Assembly (NCBI RefSeq): GCF_014646215.1 | Contig: NZ_BMNA01000008.1 | Span: forward strand, 1 to 64,000 | Source of the DNA: Nakamurella endophytica | Lineage (GTDB): Bacteria; Actinomycetota; Actinomycetes; Mycobacteriales; Nakamurellaceae | Length of the DNA stretch: 64,000 nucleotides | Reading direction: 5' to 3' | Part shown: one piece after another, positions 1,401 to 8,215 of the stretch | How the letters are laid out: each line of letters begins with the position of its first letter | Position numbering within the stretch: the first letter of the stretch is position 1 | The notes under the pieces: generated by a model | Told to the model about the DNA's origin: nothing | What the model saw: only the letters and a program-made list of their open reading frames with translations | Databases searched by the model: none | Made by a program: the position numbers and the translations under genes

Positions 1401-1406
1401 TAGAGT
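1401..1406 (+). promoter_or_regulatory. Leaderless -10 element for the MetE-like gene
   Basis: TAGAGT followed by 7 nt and GTG 1414. No Shine-Dalgarno is visible, so a leaderless mRNA is likely; it also favours 1414 over GTG 1405 as the start. Confidence 0.45.
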
Positions 1407-1413
1407 GCCGCTC

Positions 1414-2538
1414 GTGTCGGACGGACTCCTCACCACCCACGTCGGTTCGTTGCCCCGGTCGGCGGAGGTGACGGAGCTGATCTTCGCCGCCGAGCGCGGC
1501 GACCCGGTCGACCCGGACCGGTTCGACTCCGTCATCGGTGCCGCCGTCGACGAGGCGGTCCGGCGCCAGGTCGAGGCCGGCATCGACCTGGTGTCCGACG
1601 GCGAGATGTCGAAGATCTCCTACGCCACGTACATCAAGGACCGGATCACCGGCTTCGACGGCGACAGCCCCCGCGAGCCACCGGCCGACCTCGAGGACTT
1701 CCCGTCGTTCCTGCAGCGGCAGGCCAAGGGCGGCGGCACGCCGACCTACCGGCGTCCCAAGTGCGTCGGGCCGGTCGCACCCCGCACGCTGCAGCCGTTG
1801 CACGACGACGTGCGCCGGTTCGCCGCGGCGACCGCCGCGCACCCGTCGGCCGGCGCGTTCATGAACTCCGCGTCGCCCGGCGTCATCGCGCTCTTCCAGC
1901 CGAACGAGTACTACCCGTCGCAGGACGAGTACCTGGAGGCCCTGGCGGAGGCCATGCGGCCCGAGTACGAGGCCATCGTCGCCGCCGGGCTGATCCTCCA
2001 GCTGGACTCGCCGGACCTCGGGCTGGGCCGCCACATGATGTACAAGGGCCGCAGCGACGAGGAGTACATCTCGCTCATCGCCGTGCACGTCGAGGTCCTC
2101 AACCACGCGCTGCGGAACGTGCCCGCCGATCGGGTGCGGATGCACGTGTGCTGGGGCAACTACGAGGGCCCGCACACCCACGACGTCGAGATGGGCGTCA
2201 TCCTGCCGACCCTGCTGCGCGCCAAGCCGGCCGGCCTGCTCTTCGAGACGTCGAACCCGCGGCACCAGCACGACTGGACCTACTTCCGCGAGCAGGCGGC
2301 CGCCATCGGTGACGACAAGGTCCTGATCCCCGGCGTGCTGGACTCCACCACCAACTTCGTCGAGCACCCGCAGGTGGTGGCGCAGCGGCTCCGGCTGTTC
2401 ACCGACGTCGTCGGGCGGGACCGGGTCATCGGCGGCACCGACTGCGGGTTCTCGACCTTCGCCGGCTTCGGCGCGGTCGACCCGGACATCGTCTACGCCA
2501 AGCTGGCCGCGCTCGCCGAGGGCGCCGCGCTGGTCTGA
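1414..2538 (+). CDS. Cobalamin-independent methionine synthase-like (MetE C-terminal domain) protein
   Basis: A stand-alone, 374-residue homologue of the catalytic C-terminal barrel of MetE, probably transferring a methyl or related group to a thiol. It opens with TTHVGSLPRS, typical of the family, and keeps all four zinc ligands: His244 and Cys246 in RMHVCWGNYEGPH, Glu278 in LLFETSN and Cys344 in GGTDCGFSTF. The N-terminal half of full MetE is absent, so the methyl donor may not be methyl-tetrahydrofolate polyglutamate. It stands alone between a minus-strand gene and the large VWD gene. Start GTG 1414 rests on the leaderless promoter; GTG 1405 is possible. Physiological substrate cannot be told from sequence. 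Confidence 0.85.
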   Translation: MSDGLLTTHVGSLPRSAEVTELIFAAERGDPVDPDRFDSVIGAAVDEAVRRQVEAGIDLVSDGEMSKISYATYIKDRITGFDGDSPREPPADLEDFPSFLQRQAKGGGTPTYRRPKCVGPVAPRTLQPLHDDVRRFAAATAAHPSAGAFMNSASPGVIALFQPNEYYPSQDEYLEALAEAMRPEYEAIVAAGLILQLDSPDLGLGRHMMYKGRSDEEYISLIAVHVEVLNHALRNVPADRVRMHVCWGNYEGPHTHDVEMGVILPTLLRAKPAGLLFETSNPRHQHDWTYFREQAAAIGDDKVLIPGVLDSTTNFVEHPQVVAQRLRLFTDVVGRDRVIGGTDCGFSTFAGFGAVDPDIVYAKLAALAEGAALV

Positions 2539-2677: not shown

Positions 2678-5600
2678 ATGACCCGACGCACCACCGCCCT
2701 GGTCGCCGTCGGCGCCGTGCTGCTGGCCGCTGCCGTGGTGGTGCTCGTACGCACCTCCGGTCGCACGTCCGGCCCTGCAGCCCCGGCGAGGTCCACACCG
2801 GCGGCTGCGCCGCCCGGGCCCGGCACGTCCGGCACAGCGCCCACGTCCGCGGCGTCCAGGGCGTCCACCGGGTCGACGCCGCCGGCGGGTGGCGCGCCCG
2901 CCGACCCGGTCACGGCGCTGCTCGACCGGGCGCCCGACGGACGGCGGGACGTCGACCGGTCCCTGCAGGCGGCCGCGTACCTGTTCGGTCCGCTGCCGGG
3001 CGTCGTGCTGCCGGCCGGGCTGCCCCGCCCGCCCGCCAAGGTCCCGGCCGGCGACGTCGTCCGCGAGCTGCTCGGGCACTGGACGGAGCTGTCCGCCGCC
3101 CAGCGGTCGGCGGTGGCCGCGCTGGTCCTCCCGGGGCCGGCCGACGCGCCGCGGCTGCGCGGTGCGGCGCGGTGGGCGCTGGCCGACCCCAAGGACGACG
3201 CGGCGGCCCGGCTCAGGCCGCAGCTGGACACCATGACCGGCGAGATGGCCACCCGGCTGGGCCGGCCGGTGCCCGACCGCGTCGAGCTGTACCTGGTCGA
3301 CGCGGAGCGGCCGGGCGCCGCGGCGTGGACCCAGGTGCTGGCCGCCGGCGAGGGCCGCACGGCCGACGGCAGCACCGTGGTCGACGAGCAGGGCGGCGCC
3401 GCCGACCGGTGCGAGGTGTTCCTGCCGCCGTCGATGTGGCAGGGCGGCGCGCTGGACGCGGGACGGCGCAACGTGCTGTACCACGAGCTGATCCACTGCT
3501 TCCAGGGGTTCGCCTACCCCGACCTGGGCGCATACCGGACGGCGCCGGGCTGGCTGATCGAGGGCACCGCCGAGTTCGGCGGAGCAGACCTGGCCGGCAC
3601 CACCCACGGCGAGCCGTCGAACTGGCTGTTCTACCTGCGCGACCAGGCGCCGCTGTTCGTCCGGACCTACTCGGCGTTCGGCTGGTGGTTCCACCTGCAG
3701 CACACCGGCCACGATCCGTGGAAGGTCCTCGGGCGGATCTGGTCGCTCGGCCTGGCCGGGGCGGACGCGTACCGGGAGGCGGGCGGCGCCGCCCAGGACG
3801 TCGAGGACAGCTGGGGATCGTCGCTGCTGCGCCAGCCGGAGTTCGGGGACGCCTGGCAGGTCCACGGCGTCGCGGTCACCGACACCGTCCCGCCCCGCAC
3901 CACCGTCGGCGCGGTCGGCGGCCGGTTCGTGGTCGAGCCGTACGACGCAAGGGCCGCGGTGGTCACCGCCGGCGGGCTGGCGGGCGGCGTCGCCGACGGC
4001 ATCGTCCGGGTCACCTCGTCCCGGCCGGTGCGGGTGCACGACGCCGCGACGTTCGAGGACGTGCACATCACCCGCGGCGACTACTGCGTCAGCGGCGACT
4101 GCCGGTGCCCGGACGGGTCGGCGGCGGCCGGACTCGACGTCACCCCGGCGCAGCTGCCGCTGTACCTGGGCGTCACCGGAGGAGCGACCGGCGCGACGGT
4201 CGCCACCGACGTCGTGGACCTGGACGAGTACTGCCGCGAGCAGCCGGCCCGCCGGCCGCCGGTGCCGCGCTACCCCGCGGAGCCCGGTTCCGCCCCGCCG
4301 GCCAATCCGCACGCCCGATCCGGCGGCCCCGACGACGACCCGGCATCCGGCTCCAGCAACGGCGACCCGCACCTGGTGACGTTCGACGGCTACCGGTACG
4401 ACTTCCAGGCCGGCGGCGAGTTCGTGCTCGCCACCGCCGGTGCCGGCGACCTCGAGGTGCAGGCCCGGCAGGAACCCGTGCGGGCCGCGGACGGCGCGGA
4501 GCGGCTCGACGCGTCGATCACCACGGCGGTGGCGGTCCGGATCGGCCGGAGCCGGGTGACCGTCGCGGTCGCCGATGCCCTCCGGCCGGAGCTGCGGATC
4601 GACGGCGCCGGCCGCCGCCCGCGGCAGCCCGTCGCCCTCGCCGGCGGCGGCACCGTGGCGCCGGACACCGGCGGCTACCGGCTGACCTGGCCGGACGGCA
4701 CGGTGCTGCGGGTGCTGCCGATCGGCGACGCCGGCCTCAACGTCGTGCTGGAACCCGACCGCGGCCGCATCGGCACCCTGTCCGGGCTGCTCGGGCCGTA
4801 CACCGGCCGACCGGGCTCCACGCTCCTCGACCGGTCGGGCACGGCGTACCCGGACCCGGCCGCGTCGGCGCCGACGGACCCGTTGTACACCCGGTTCGGC
4901 GCGAGCTGGCGGGTCACCGCCGGCACGTCGCTGTTCGACTACCCGGCCGGCCGGTCCACCGCGGACTACCAGCGCACCGACATGCCGTCCAGGGTGCTCA
5001 CCCTGGAGGACCTGCCCGCCGACGTCCGGGCGGCGGCCGACCGGGCCTGCGGGACGCTCACCCCCGCAGCGCGGCGGGACGCCTGCGTCTACGACGTGGC
5101 GGTCAGCGGCGACGAGGCGTTCGCGGACGGCTACCGGGTCCTGCAGACGGTGGCGCCGGACACCGCGTCCCCGACCGGCCCGTCGTCGCGCCCGTCGTCC
5201 GACCCGGCCACCACGGCGTCAGCCGGCGCCGTCCGGGTGGGCGGCTCCATCCCGGCCGTCACGCTGCGACCGGGCGAGACCCGCAGCTGGACGGTCGACG
5301 ACCCGGCCGCCACGGCGCTCTACTGGGCCTCCGACGCGGAGTGCGCGGCGTCCGTGCCGGTCTTCTGGCGGGTCACCGCGCCGGACGGCACGGAGAGCCT
5401 GCAGATCCCGGGGTGCCAGGACGGCGGCCGGATCACCACCGGGTCGCCCGGGACGTGGCGGGTCGACGCGTTCGTCGACGCCGGCTCGAGCGACGGCGGC
5501 AGCTGGGCGTTCCACGTCGTGGCGGCCGGACCGGAGCGCTCCCGGCCGTCGACGCTGCCGTTGACCGTCGCCGCCGGCGACGCGGTGCTCGCCGGGGCCG

Positions 5601-5860
5601 GCGCGACCGACCGCTGGACGTTCGACGGTCTCGCCGGCGACGTGGTGACCCTGCGGGCCGCGGACGGCTGCCCGGCCGGCAGCGCGGTGACGTGGGGACT
5701 GGCCGACCCCGGCGGGACCGTGGTGACCCTGCGCACCGGCATCTGCGACGACCCGAACCCGCAGACCCTGACCTCCGACGGGCGGTGGAGCGTCGTGGTG
5801 GTCAACGACACCGACACCGCGGGTCCGTACCGCTACGGGTTCACGGCGACGCGGTCCTGA
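2678..5860 (+). CDS. Large secreted protein with gluzincin-like peptidase motif and von Willebrand factor D domain
   Basis: 1060 residues; ATG 2678 has GGGAGA just upstream. The N-terminus is a signal/membrane segment (ALVAVGAVLLAAAVVVLV), followed by a Ser/Pro/Ala-rich linker to about residue 80. A zinc-peptidase motif HELIH occupies 269-273, and WLIEGTAEF at 292-300 supplies a third ligand (Glu295), the gluzincin arrangement. From residue 561 a VWD-like domain begins (NGDPHLVTFDGYRYDF) and runs about 180 residues. After a second Ser/Pro/Thr linker near 830, the C-terminus is beta-rich and resembles two pre-peptidase-C-like copies. The combination suggests a surface-exposed or released protease or adhesion protein, but no substrate is known. 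Cys pairs are common, as expected for an extracellular protein. Confidence 0.8.
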   Translation: MTRRTTALVAVGAVLLAAAVVVLVRTSGRTSGPAAPARSTPAAAPPGPGTSGTAPTSAASRASTGSTPPAGGAPADPVTALLDRAPDGRRDVDRSLQAAAYLFGPLPGVVLPAGLPRPPAKVPAGDVVRELLGHWTELSAAQRSAVAALVLPGPADAPRLRGAARWALADPKDDAAARLRPQLDTMTGEMATRLGRPVPDRVELYLVDAERPGAAAWTQVLAAGEGRTADGSTVVDEQGGAADRCEVFLPPSMWQGGALDAGRRNVLYHELIHCFQGFAYPDLGAYRTAPGWLIEGTAEFGGADLAGTTHGEPSNWLFYLRDQAPLFVRTYSAFGWWFHLQHTGHDPWKVLGRIWSLGLAGADAYREAGGAAQDVEDSWGSSLLRQPEFGDAWQVHGVAVTDTVPPRTTVGAVGGRFVVEPYDARAAVVTAGGLAGGVADGIVRVTSSRPVRVHDAATFEDVHITRGDYCVSGDCRCPDGSAAAGLDVTPAQLPLYLGVTGGATGATVATDVVDLDEYCREQPARRPPVPRYPAEPGSAPPANPHARSGGPDDDPASGSSNGDPHLVTFDGYRYDFQAGGEFVLATAGAGDLEVQARQEPVRAADGAERLDASITTAVAVRIGRSRVTVAVADALRPELRIDGAGRRPRQPVALAGGGTVAPDTGGYRLTWPDGTVLRVLPIGDAGLNVVLEPDRGRIGTLSGLLGPYTGRPGSTLLDRSGTAYPDPAASAPTDPLYTRFGASWRVTAGTSLFDYPAGRSTADYQRTDMPSRVLTLEDLPADVRAAADRACGTLTPAARRDACVYDVAVSGDEAFADGYRVLQTVAPDTASPTGPSSRPSSDPATTASAGAVRVGGSIPAVTLRPGETRSWTVDDPAATALYWASDAECAASVPVFWRVTAPDGTESLQIPGCQDGGRITTGSPGTWRVDAFVDAGSSDGGSWAFHVVAAGPERSRPSTLPLTVAAGDAVLAGAGATDRWTFDGLAGDVVTLRAADGCPAGSAVTWGLADPGGTVVTLRTGICDDPNPQTLTSDGRWSVVVVNDTDTAGPYRYGFTATRS

Positions 5861-5928
5861 CCGCGGCCGGGGACGGCACCGAGGACAGCGCCGAGGACAG
5901 CGGCGCGGACGGGACCGGGACGGCGCGA

Positions 5929-7365
5929 TCAGCGGGCACCGTCGGCGCCGGCTGGGTCCAGGCCGTCCAGGCCGTCCAGGCCGCGCAGCCGTCGCGGCCG
6001 GATTCCGCCGACCCCTGCGACCCCGTCGATCGTTCCCTCACCGTCGACGCGGTCCGCCCGGTCGATCCCGTCGATCCCGTCGATTCCGTCGACCGCCTCC
6101 GCGTCGGAACCCGGGTCCGTCGCGACCGCGGTGGCCGCCCTGGTACGGGCCGGGTCCGCCGCCGTCGTGACCCGTCCGGTGGCCCGGTCCTCCCGGCGGG
6201 CGGTGGCGCGGCGGGCGACCCAGCGGCCCAGCGGGTCGCCGGCGCGGGCGACCAGCGGCCCGGCCACCGCCATGATCAGCACGTAGGTGGCCGCCAGCGC
6301 GCCCAGGCCGGGAGCCACCACACCGGCCGCCCCGGTGGCCAGGCCGGCGACGACGATGTTGAACTCGCCGCGCGAGACGATCACGGTGCCGGCGCGGATC
6401 TGGCCGGCTGGGCCGATGCCGGTCCGGCGCGTCGCCCACACCCCGACGCCGATCTTGGTCAGCGCCGTCACGGCGCCCAGAGCCAGCGCGGGCAGCAGCA
6501 TGCCGGGGATGTCGCCGGGATGGGTCTGCAGCCCGAAGAAGACGAAGAACACCGCGGCGAACAGGTCGCGCAGCGGCGCCAGCAGGGTGTAGGCGCTCTG
6601 GGCGACCCGGCCGGACAGGGCGATGCCCACCAGGAAGGCGCCGACCGCCTCGGACACCTGCAGCTGCTGGGCGGCGCCGGCCACCAGCAGCGCCAGGCCG
6701 AAGACGATGAGCAGGAGGACCTCGGAGCTCTCGGTCCAGATCAGCCGGCCGAGCTGCTGCCCGAACCGCAACGCGACCACGAGCGCCACCGTGATGGCGA
6801 CCAGCGCGATGCCCACCGAGATCGTCCCGGACAGCAGCCCGGCGCCGGCGAGAAGGGCGGTGAGCACGGGCAGGTACACGGCCATCGACAGGTCCTCCAG
6901 GACCAGCAGCGACAGCACGACCGGGGTCTCCCGGTTGCCGAGCCGGCCGAGGTCGCCGAGCAGCTTGGCGGTGATCCCGGAGCTGGTGGCGTAGGTGATG
7001 CCGCCCATGGCGACGACCGCCGGAGCGGACCAGCCCAGGATCAGCCCGACGGCGACGCCGGGCGCGGAGTTGGCGACCAGGTTGACGATGCCGGCCGGCG
7101 CCTGCTGCCGGAGGTTGGTCATCAGCTCCGGGGCGGAGTACTCCAGTCCCAGCAGGAGCAGCAACAGCACGACGCCGATCTCGGCGCCGGTGGAGATGAA
7201 CGACTCGCTGGCGCCCAGCGGCAGCAGGCCGCCGTCGCCGAAGGCCAGGCCGGCGAGCAGGTAGAACGGCACCGGGGACAGGCCGATCCGCCCGGCCAGC
7301 CGGCCCAGCAGGCCGAGCACCAGGATGACGGCGCCCAGCTCCATGAAGATGACGGCCGAGTGCAC
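5929..7365 (-). CDS. khtU: Cation:proton antiporter membrane subunit (CPA2, KhtU-like)
   Basis: Likely exports K+ in exchange for H+. The 478-residue protein has about 12-13 hydrophobic segments of the CPA2 fold through residue 390, with the conserved GLEYSAPEL and AVGAFLVGIALS regions. A hydrophilic tail then carries repeated DGI and GLD tripeptides (GIDGIDGID, GLDGLDGLD) encoded by 9-bp tandem repeats; this tail is unusual for the family. GTG 7365 is preceded by GGAGGGAG. The gene follows the KhtT-like regulatory subunit in the same direction, 145 bp apart, so the two probably form one transport complex. No TrkA-N domain is present in this subunit, consistent with regulation by the separate partner. 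Confidence 0.85.
   Translation of the reverse strand: MHSAVIFMELGAVILVLGLLGRLAGRIGLSPVPFYLLAGLAFGDGGLLPLGASESFISTGAEIGVVLLLLLLGLEYSAPELMTNLRQQAPAGIVNLVANSAPGVAVGLILGWSAPAVVAMGGITYATSSGITAKLLGDLGRLGNRETPVVLSLLVLEDLSMAVYLPVLTALLAGAGLLSGTISVGIALVAITVALVVALRFGQQLGRLIWTESSEVLLLIVFGLALLVAGAAQQLQVSEAVGAFLVGIALSGRVAQSAYTLLAPLRDLFAAVFFVFFGLQTHPGDIPGMLLPALALGAVTALTKIGVGVWATRRTGIGPAGQIRAGTVIVSRGEFNIVVAGLATGAAGVVAPGLGALAATYVLIMAVAGPLVARAGDPLGRWVARRATARREDRATGRVTTAADPARTRAATAVATDPGSDAEAVDGIDGIDGIDRADRVDGEGTIDGVAGVGGIRPRRLRGLDGLDGLDPAGADGAR
5956..5982 (+). repeat. 9-bp tandem repeat (gtccaggcc x3) in khtU 3' end
   Basis: Three exact copies of gtccaggcc, in frame with the antiporter gene, encoding GLDGLDGLD in its C-terminal tail. 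Confidence 0.9.
6061..6087 (+). repeat. 9-bp tandem repeat (gtcgatccc x3) in khtU 3' end
   Basis: Two exact and one variant copy (gtcgattcc), encoding GIDGIDGID in the antiporter tail. Confidence 0.9.
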
Positions 7366-7510
7366 GTCGCTCCCTCCAGATCGCCGCGTCGCGGCCGGTC
7401 GGCCGCGGTGGCGGCGTCCGGGGATCGGCGTCGATCACCCCTTGCGGACGGGGTCGGTGACCCGTGCCGGTGGCACGGGTCGGGTCGGCCGGTGTCCGGA
7501 CCGGCGGACG

Positions 7511-8002
7511 TCAGCCGGCGACGAGGTCGCGCAGCGTCTCGATGGACTCGGCGGTCCCGACGACGATCAGCACGTCGCCGCCCGTCAGGCTGCGCTCGGG
7601 GTCCGGCGACGGCACCATCTCGCCGTCGTGCAGCACCGCCACGACGGACGCCCCGGTGCGCTTGGCCTTGATCGCGGTGAGGGCCAGGCCGTCGAACCGG
7701 GAGCCGTGGGCGACCTTGACCTTGCCCACGGCCAGGCCCGCCACCTGCTCGGACAGGTTCGCCAGGCGTTCGATGACGCGCCGGTTGCCCAGGAAGCCGG
7801 CCAGCGCGTCGGCCTCCGGGCCGGAGAGGGTGACGACCTGGGAACAGGAGTCCGGGTCGTCCTTGCTGAACACCACGAGGTCCCGCTTGCCGTTGCGGTG
7901 GGCGACCACGCCCACCCGGCGGCCGGCGTCCGTGAGGAAGTCGTGCCGGATGCCCACCCCGGGCAGCCGGGTCTCGGAGACCTCGACGTCCTCGTCGAAC
8001 AT
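7511..8002 (-). CDS. khtT: Cation:proton antiporter regulatory subunit (KhtT-like, RCK_C domain)
   Basis: A 163-residue cytoplasmic regulator of the adjacent KhtU-like antiporter. The first 70 residues form the KhtT-type N-terminal domain (VSETRLPGVGIRHDF) and residues from about 85 form a TrkA-C/RCK_C domain ending in GGDVLIVVGTAESIETL. In Bacillus the equivalent domain binds c-di-AMP; whether it does so here cannot be seen. ATG 8002 has AAAGG upstream. An in-frame open stretch continues to 8200 but reads as non-coding Arg/Pro/Gly-rich sequence, so the shorter start is preferred. It lies upstream of khtU and is probably co-transcribed. Confidence 0.88.
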   Translation of the reverse strand: MFDEDVEVSETRLPGVGIRHDFLTDAGRRVGVVAHRNGKRDLVVFSKDDPDSCSQVVTLSGPEADALAGFLGNRRVIERLANLSEQVAGLAVGKVKVAHGSRFDGLALTAIKAKRTGASVVAVLHDGEMVPSPDPERSLTGGDVLIVVGTAESIETLRDLVAG

Positions 8003-8215
8003 CACGTGCCTTTCTGCTCGGAAGTGGCGTCGCGGCGTCCCGCTCCGCCCCGCCGGCGGCCCGGTGACAGCCGTCCCGGCTGTCCTGACCTGCTCCGACG
8101 TGCCCGGTGCAACGCCGGACGGGACCAGATTAGTCCTGCCGTGGCCGGGGCGCGGACGGTCGACCGGGGCCGGCCGCAGGCCCCCGATCGGTCCGTCCAA
8201 AAGGCCCGCGAGCGG

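Follow-up and report, generated by a model that had tools for sequence, protein, structure and literature searches.

Gene and domain organization

The window analyzed here is a 64,000-nucleotide stretch of Nakamurella endophytica DNA (contig NZ_BMNA01000008.1, positions 1 to 64,000), and the gene in question lies on its forward strand at positions 2678-5860. The encoded protein joins an N-terminal domain, here called the head, which is likely a zinc metallopeptidase, to a VWD domain with an intact GDPH motif. The gene is real, since the GC content at its third codon position is 0.962 (0.746 and 0.615 at the first and second) and GGGAGA sits immediately before the ATG. In an overlapping rival open reading frame (3172-7671), the high-GC position falls on codon position 1. 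A chance or frame artefact is ruled out by the third-position GC together with the homologues described below.

From the N- to the C-terminus, the chain consists of a hydrophobic segment, a linker rich in proline, threonine and serine (P/T/S), a peptidase-like domain, a CxxxxCxC beta domain, a cysteine-free linker, the VWD domain, a C8-like domain, and two PPC-like repeats (Table 1). The P/T/S-rich linkers that were measured are 41-56 residues each. The 12 cysteines of the whole protein fit an extracytoplasmic location, as does the lipobox-like cysteine that, in a by-eye reading, follows a hydrophobic stretch at 22 of 42 related loci. The window protein is probably N-terminally anchored and exported. 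The first-pass annotation had described a secreted protein combining a gluzincin-like motif with a VWD domain, and both domains are supported by the analysis. An NCBIfam scan of the window protein gave nothing above cut-off.

Table 1. Features of the metallopeptidase-VWD gene and its predicted protein (window coordinates)
Feature	Position	Strand	Basis
Whole gene, metallopeptidase-VWD protein with probable anchor	2678..5860	+	ATG start, 1060 aa; open reading frame and translation, third-position GC, GGGAGA before ATG
Probable membrane anchor, hydrophobic N-terminal residues 8-24, without lipobox Cys	2699..2749	+	by-eye sequence reading
P/T/S/A-rich linker, residues 25-78	2750..2911	+	P+T+S = 50% over residues 25-80
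Likely gluzincin-type metallopeptidase domain, residues 85-402	2930..3883	+	AlphaFold2 head model; VIA-align to M30 and M1
HELIH, predicted zinc/catalytic motif, residues 269-273	3482..3496	+	36/36 aligned sequences; model helix 187-205
WLIEGTAEF, residues 292-300, E295 predicted third zinc ligand	3551..3577	+	E in 35/36; model helix 217-232
Beta domain with C470-x4-C475-x-C477, residues 408-514, then C519	3899..4219	+	model strands 334-440
VWD domain, residues 561-721	4358..4840	+	PF00094, 31.7 bits vs cut-off 22.9; VIA-align matches to D assemblies of VWF and mucins
GDPH motif, residues 562-565; predicted cut D563/P564 (4366/4367)	4361..4372	+	sequence; register with FCGBP D10
Q577 (Asp+14), positional equivalent of FCGBP Q4094	4406..4408	+	sequence; Q4094 role from PMC10880436
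Helical, C8-like domain, residues 736-825; C791 and C803 are its only cysteines	4883..5152	+	helical in the model (662-751); aligned with VWF/MUC as far as model residue 756
Two PPC-like beta-sandwich repeats, residues 863-1060	5264..5857	+	homology to tail of same-genus RHS-VWD protein

The predicted metallopeptidase head

Gluzincins (clan MA(E)) carry HExxH and a glutamate third ligand on the following helix within a zincin fold. The first-pass annotation took the HELIH and WLIEGTAEF segments as a plausible zinc site; both are present, HELIH at the residues it gave. In an AlphaFold2 model of residues 75-526 built from 36 sequences (mean predicted local distance difference test score, pLDDT, 87.6; predicted template modelling score, pTM, 0.87), HELIH sits on one helix and WLIEG on the next (Table 1; 74 is added to head-model residue numbers for protein numbering). 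The predicted ligands H269, H273 and E295 are therefore on successive helices. When the model was compared with known structures by VIA-align, the top match was lugdulysin of family M30 (7bb8_A; Z 13.7, root-mean-square deviation 4.5 Å, 273 aligned residues), followed mostly by M1 aminopeptidases with Z about 10 and below. The outcome that had been named as refuting the first-pass proposal, HELIH lying outside a metallopeptidase fold, was not seen. The window head and lugdulysin would share a zinc-peptidase fold at 11% identity, but the window head has its own cysteine pattern of C245/C274 and C470-C475-C477.

Sequence conservation points in the same direction. Across the alignment of 36 sequences, one of which is the window protein, the residues C245, H269, E270, H273, C274, W292, A298 and G344 are invariant. 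Position 295 holds Glu in all but one sequence (35/36), which has Asp. These counts are biased upward because the relatives were retrieved with patterns covering HExxHC and WxxEGxA. C470, C475 and C477 are each present in 35/36 sequences, and C519 in 31/36. By itself, the motif is evidence of moderate strength: when the 560-residue head was shuffled 20,000 times, HExxH followed by Glu 18-30 residues on appeared in 62 cases. Neither alignments A6 and A7 nor the head tree include seven of the 42 loci (L109, L115, L132, L134, L135, L137 and L138), as these are short, truncated at contig ends or weak.

Several results weigh against this assignment. Foldseek with the head alone gave no match in the PDB at E ≤ 0.001. 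Glucuronidases and other non-peptidases headed its list, with the zinc metallopeptidase EryP at rank 41 (E 0.26). The likeness to M30 and M1 comes from VIA-align as a second look, and 4.5 Å is a loose fit. In the 26 heads of the family that were scanned singly, no Pfam family passed its cut-off. The nearest were BSP (21.7 vs 23.8 bits, L125) and DUF6055 (24.9 vs 27, L139). The case for a zincin-type fold is therefore good, not airtight, and the modelled head is likely a gluzincin-type zinc metallopeptidase.

The family placement of the head was also inspected. With the 36 members scanned together at Pfam E ≤ 0.1, BSP matched 17, DUF6055 seven and DUF2268 five; M30 was not among the 14 families listed, in spite of the structural similarity to an M30 member. 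Membership of the window protein in BSP (PF04450) was rejected (18.2 bits for the full protein and 19.9 for the head alone, cut-off 23.8), as was membership in Peptidase_M91 (PF14891), with no match at E ≤ 1. The genome itself gave no Peptidase_M91 match at E ≤ 0.001. A search of PDB sequences with the head profile returned two rows, at E 0.38 and 2.2. These comparisons point to a conserved family of peptidase-like lipoproteins that lies below every Pfam cut-off in the members checked. The same head and CxxxxCxC domain also occur in stand-alone, lipoprotein-like HExxHC[FI]Q proteins such as Thermomicrobium roseum WP_012642829.1 (annotated as a hypothetical protein). Proteins of this type have no VWD, and a Lipocalin_4-like stretch below cut-off stands in its place.

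The VWD-C8 module and its GDPH motif

The VWD domain starts at residue 561 with NGDPHLVTFDGYRYDF, in agreement with the first-pass annotation. In a model of residues 75-835 (mean pLDDT 81.7, pTM 0.69), model residues 480-756, comprising VWD and C8, matched VWF and mucin D assemblies by VIA-align, with the best Z of 19.5 for VWF (8d3d_A). The alignment with the self-cleaved D10 assembly of human FCGBP (8qci_B) covers 170 residues with Z 17.9, 2.4 Å and 22% identity. This aligned range starts at P564, equivalent to residue 4081, placing the two GDPH motifs in register. According to the FCGBP study (PMC10880436), cleavage depends on the GDPH Asp and His, the Gln at Asp+14 helps, and the cut parts are kept together by disulphides. 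All the corresponding residues, D563, P564, H565 and Q577, are in register in the window VWD.

The window module thus resembles the D assemblies of FCGBP, mucins and VWF in its predicted VWD-C8 fold, its GDPH and its Gln at Asp+14, but it differs in having few cysteines, a single VWD, and PPC-like repeats in place of further D assemblies. A cysteine pair at the C8 position of C791/C803 is found in 62/64 tabulated VWDs. Since the window protein has no cysteine between C519 and C791, no disulphide is evident across D563-P564. The tail is homologous to that of an RHS-VWD protein from the same genus (E 3e-16 for the pair). Across the order, 17/48 VWD proteins match PF04151 (PPC) at E ≤ 0.01, but the window protein has no match to it at E ≤ 1.

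Distribution of metallopeptidase-VWD proteins

The window's own genome has a single VWD, and within the genus 7/17 genomes carry one. The parts preceding the VWD vary: besides the window-type head and a relative of it (G016, L013), there are M91-like heads (G010, G013), an RHS/YD shell (G014), and others. The M91 match in G010 (L010) is sub-threshold only, at 18.5 vs 25 bits. The genus VWD proteins look like one chassis with exchangeable heads. The protein of G014 (L014, 466-5853) has a lipobox-like start, the RHS/YD shell, and a C-terminal GDPH VWD followed by the tail repeats homologous to those of the window protein.

At the level of the order, 48 VWD places were found in 44/397 genomes. 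HExxH lies upstream of the VWD in the same frame in 35 of the 48 proteins, whereas shuffled heads average 0.25 such cases and never exceed 3, and in none of the 48 does it lie within the VWD and tail. Pfam families matched at E ≤ 0.01 included Peptidase_M91 (31/48) and RGM_C (9/48). The 397 genomes contain 35 M91 places, many of them from one genus and hence not independent. By hand comparison of coordinates, 30 of these stand directly before a VWD, counting one frame-change case in G112. In that case (L043), the adjoining M91-type head and VWD are in different frames, which may be a real frameshift or an assembly error. The actinobacterial Peptidase_M91-VWD proteins are like the window protein in that an HExxH head directly precedes a GDPH VWD, with a PPC-like tail in several, and unlike it in that the M91 head has its own conserved pattern.

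In a sample of the phylum, 11 VWD places occurred in 10/396 genomes. Four have window-type heads (window, G716, G738 and G714), two have M91-type heads (G030 and G112), and the other five have no HExxH. A three-head profile hit 26/396 phylum genomes at E ≤ 0.001, mostly with weak or partial matches. The class of G716 contributed 12 VWD places in 11/385 genomes, two of them metallopeptidase-headed. In five VWD proteins outside Actinomycetota, no HExxH was present in the stretch examined (L147 only in part). Judging from these sequences, the coupling of metallopeptidase and VWD is common, not universal. The architecture had been called unusual in the first-pass annotation. The combination is indeed real, but a one-off architecture is rejected, because metallopeptidase-VWD recurs in Actinomycetota with two kinds of head.

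Number of fusions

A search with the window protein alone found no relatives in genome contigs or viral contigs. With alignment A5, head relatives were encoded at the 42 loci, all in named genomes. At least nine of them run on into a VWD, a lower bound since six loci are open at an end, and seven of the nine belong to Acidimicrobiia-type taxa by title or placement. Desertimonas flava, a culturable relative, has two genes of this kind (L120, L136). The closest relative of the window protein, at 48% identity and with a VWD, comes from a metagenome-assembled genome named Actinophytocola. Further VWD-carrying members are L013, L087, L089 and L141, the last of which scores 133.9 bits with the profile of A7, while its genome is not listed by the phylum profile search. 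The remaining head-family loci are spread over groups that include Actinomycetota, Chloroflexota, Thermomicrobiota, Myxococcota and Bdellovibrionota.

On the best head tree, built without L088 and L090 (the same genes as L127 and L117), the VWD label needs four changes (bootstrap 3-5), and the starred branches alone force one. A single joining of head to VWD within the window's head family stays compatible with this sequence tree. On a tree of 64 VWDs, built without L099 (whose frame looks broken after the VWD), the M91 label needs three changes and the window-type label four, and the starred branches force one and two. Across the two head types, a metallopeptidase appears from the sequences to have been joined to VWD in at least two separate fusions, because the window and M91 heads share only 24 aligned columns around HExxH (profile comparison, probability 60%) and, of the 48 order heads, only those of the window and L013 match the window-family profile (E ≤ 1), leaving the other 46 unmatched.

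Retention of the cleavage motif

Among 78 VWDs (L153, the same gene as L131, was left out of the tallies), D-P-H is kept in 47/47 with a metallopeptidase head (45 GDPH, 2 ADPH) and in 16/31 without. The M91 label in this tally and in the VWD tree stands for the pattern HExxH[A/S] plus L043, not for a Pfam match. For an earlier subset (47/47 vs 10/17), a Fisher test gave 3e-5 with relatedness still in the data. Variants in VWDs without a metallopeptidase head are GDTH, GDVH, GDIH and GEPH. The VWDs of L046, L047, L051, L052 and L056 form a clade with GDTH for GDPH and without an HExxH head.

Relation to published systems

Bacterial proteins that combine a metallopeptidase with prok-SAA, vWD and Ig domains were published in the eLife 2025 Lipocone paper (PMC12419801). 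As described there, they resemble the predicted window protein in being secreted and in having a zincin-like metallopeptidase at the N-terminus and a vWD at the C-terminus. Unlike it, they carry prok-SAA Lipocone and Ig domains, none of which Pfam detects in the window protein. The window region between peptidase and VWD is predicted as beta, and the scan, made with Pfam profiles, listed no SAA match. The general pairing is thus already known from print, and the name "VWD domain-containing protein" is already in use as an annotation in plasmid records. Among the matches listed in a search of the open-access literature, the Lipocone paper was the only one found to concern a bacterial VWD, and none described the M91-VWD class, the head family of the window protein, or bacterial GDPH cleavage.

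Prior publication of a bacterial metallopeptidase-vWD protein makes the window protein less novel, and the recurrence of the fusion with seemingly unrelated heads, the cleavage motif being retained, makes it more interesting. Among the matches listed, work on VWD-C8 units and on GDPH self-cleavage deals with animal proteins. A bacterial VWD-C8 that is poor in cysteines and has its motif intact would offer a simple way to study the purpose and age of Asp-Pro cleavage. That such modules are repeatedly paired with zinc peptidases suggests that they generally serve to process or display surface proteases in Actinomycetota.

Proposed mechanism and alternatives

We propose that the window protein is a surface-tethered protease whose VWD nicks itself at D563-P564, a reading drawn from sequence, model and analogy to which we give roughly even chances. 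In this proposal, the zinc metallopeptidase would be held outside the cytoplasm by the N-terminal membrane anchor, and the VWD-C8 module with the two PPC-like repeats would form a C-terminal tail behind it. After folding, the VWD would cut its own chain, with the Asp side chain attacking its own carbonyl and H565 and Q577 assisting. The halves would then be held by packing only, or the tail of about 497 residues would leave the anchored enzyme. The head probably cleaves extracellular proteins or peptides, and the tail may bind a surface or a partner. The first-pass annotation had suggested self-processing, which is plausible through the GDPH of the VWD, not through the peptidase.

Several findings on the motif count against the proposal. 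An independent-pairs test of the association between head and D-P-H yields one pair on supported branches and seven on all, putting significance out of reach, and Gln at +14 is present in only 4/13 tabulated VWDs of the window's head family. For these two reasons, self-cleavage is likely but unproven. In the class of G716, 10/12 VWDs have no metallopeptidase head, and GDPH occurs in 4/5 of the peptidase-free VWDs examined outside Actinomycetota, where it may serve the fold. If so, the head could be an active surface protease whose uncleaved VWD tail only positions it, with GDPH needed for folding. We regard this adhesin-like protease as possible, though clearly less probable. The D-P-H retained in 16/31 peptidase-free VWDs overall and the missing Gln in 9/13 of the window's family agree with it, but the invariable retention behind peptidase heads, while others vary, is against it, with the reservation about relatedness given above.

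An antagonistic role, in which a toxin-like peptidase head is released onto neighbouring cells, seems unlikely. Such a role is proposed for the myxobacterial metallopeptidase/prok-SAA/vWD proteins in PMC12419801. The Pfam name of Peptidase_M91, matched by most VWD proteins of the order, is "Effector protein", and one VWD of the same genus is placed behind an RHS/YD shell. However, the head of the window protein lies before the predicted cut, on the side of the probable N-terminal anchor. No shared immunity partner was seen either: among neighbour genes at 13 loci, some of them short, no family besides the metallopeptidase-VWD protein itself occurred in four or more (frames of at least 100 aa, called roughly by a third-position GC rule), and PADLOC found nothing in three proteins. 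We consider it improbable that the head is an inactive peptidase fold serving binding only. The Pfam peptidase scores under cut-off would suit such a fold, but H269, E270, H273 and E295 are conserved across a diverse family, even allowing for the ascertainment bias in those counts.

Gel-forming mucins have long PTS domains and cysteine-rich D assemblies. The VWD-C8 fold, similar to that of mucin D assemblies, gives some ground for the idea in the first-pass annotation that the protein polymerizes through its VWD into a mucin-like matrix. This idea fails on several points and has very little probability left: the P/T/S linkers are short, the genome has a single VWD, and a disulphide-rich mucin assembly is missing because the VWD-C8 stretch has two cysteines only. 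Identity as a gel-forming mucin was rejected on the same linker lengths and cysteine count.

Beyond the window protein, we tentatively suggest that GDPH-driven Asp-Pro self-cleavage may be an old bacterial processing device. In Actinobacteria, the VWD-C8 module would then be a self-cutting adaptor between a binding tail and exchangeable membrane-anchored metallopeptidase heads of at least two unrelated families. The D assemblies of animal mucins and VWF would represent the same module in a later form, strengthened by disulphides.

Neighbouring genes and other VWD proteins

Just upstream of the gene in the window (1405-2538, + strand) is a protein with a cobalamin-independent methionine synthase catalytic domain. 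Downstream on the opposite strand (5929-8200, − strand), a CPA2-type cation/proton antiporter lies next to a separate TrkA_C-domain protein.

Two other VWD proteins have different partners. In Nonomuraea gerenzanensis (L001, 4873-10776), a GEPH VWD is followed by PPC repeats and preceded by a hydrophobic stretch, and the N-terminal part has no Pfam match at E ≤ 0.01. The protein of G274 (L019, 3254-6832) carries a strong NIDO domain (4.6e-21) with its VWD, and human MUC4 likewise combines NIDO and vWD, according to the title of PMC5354666.

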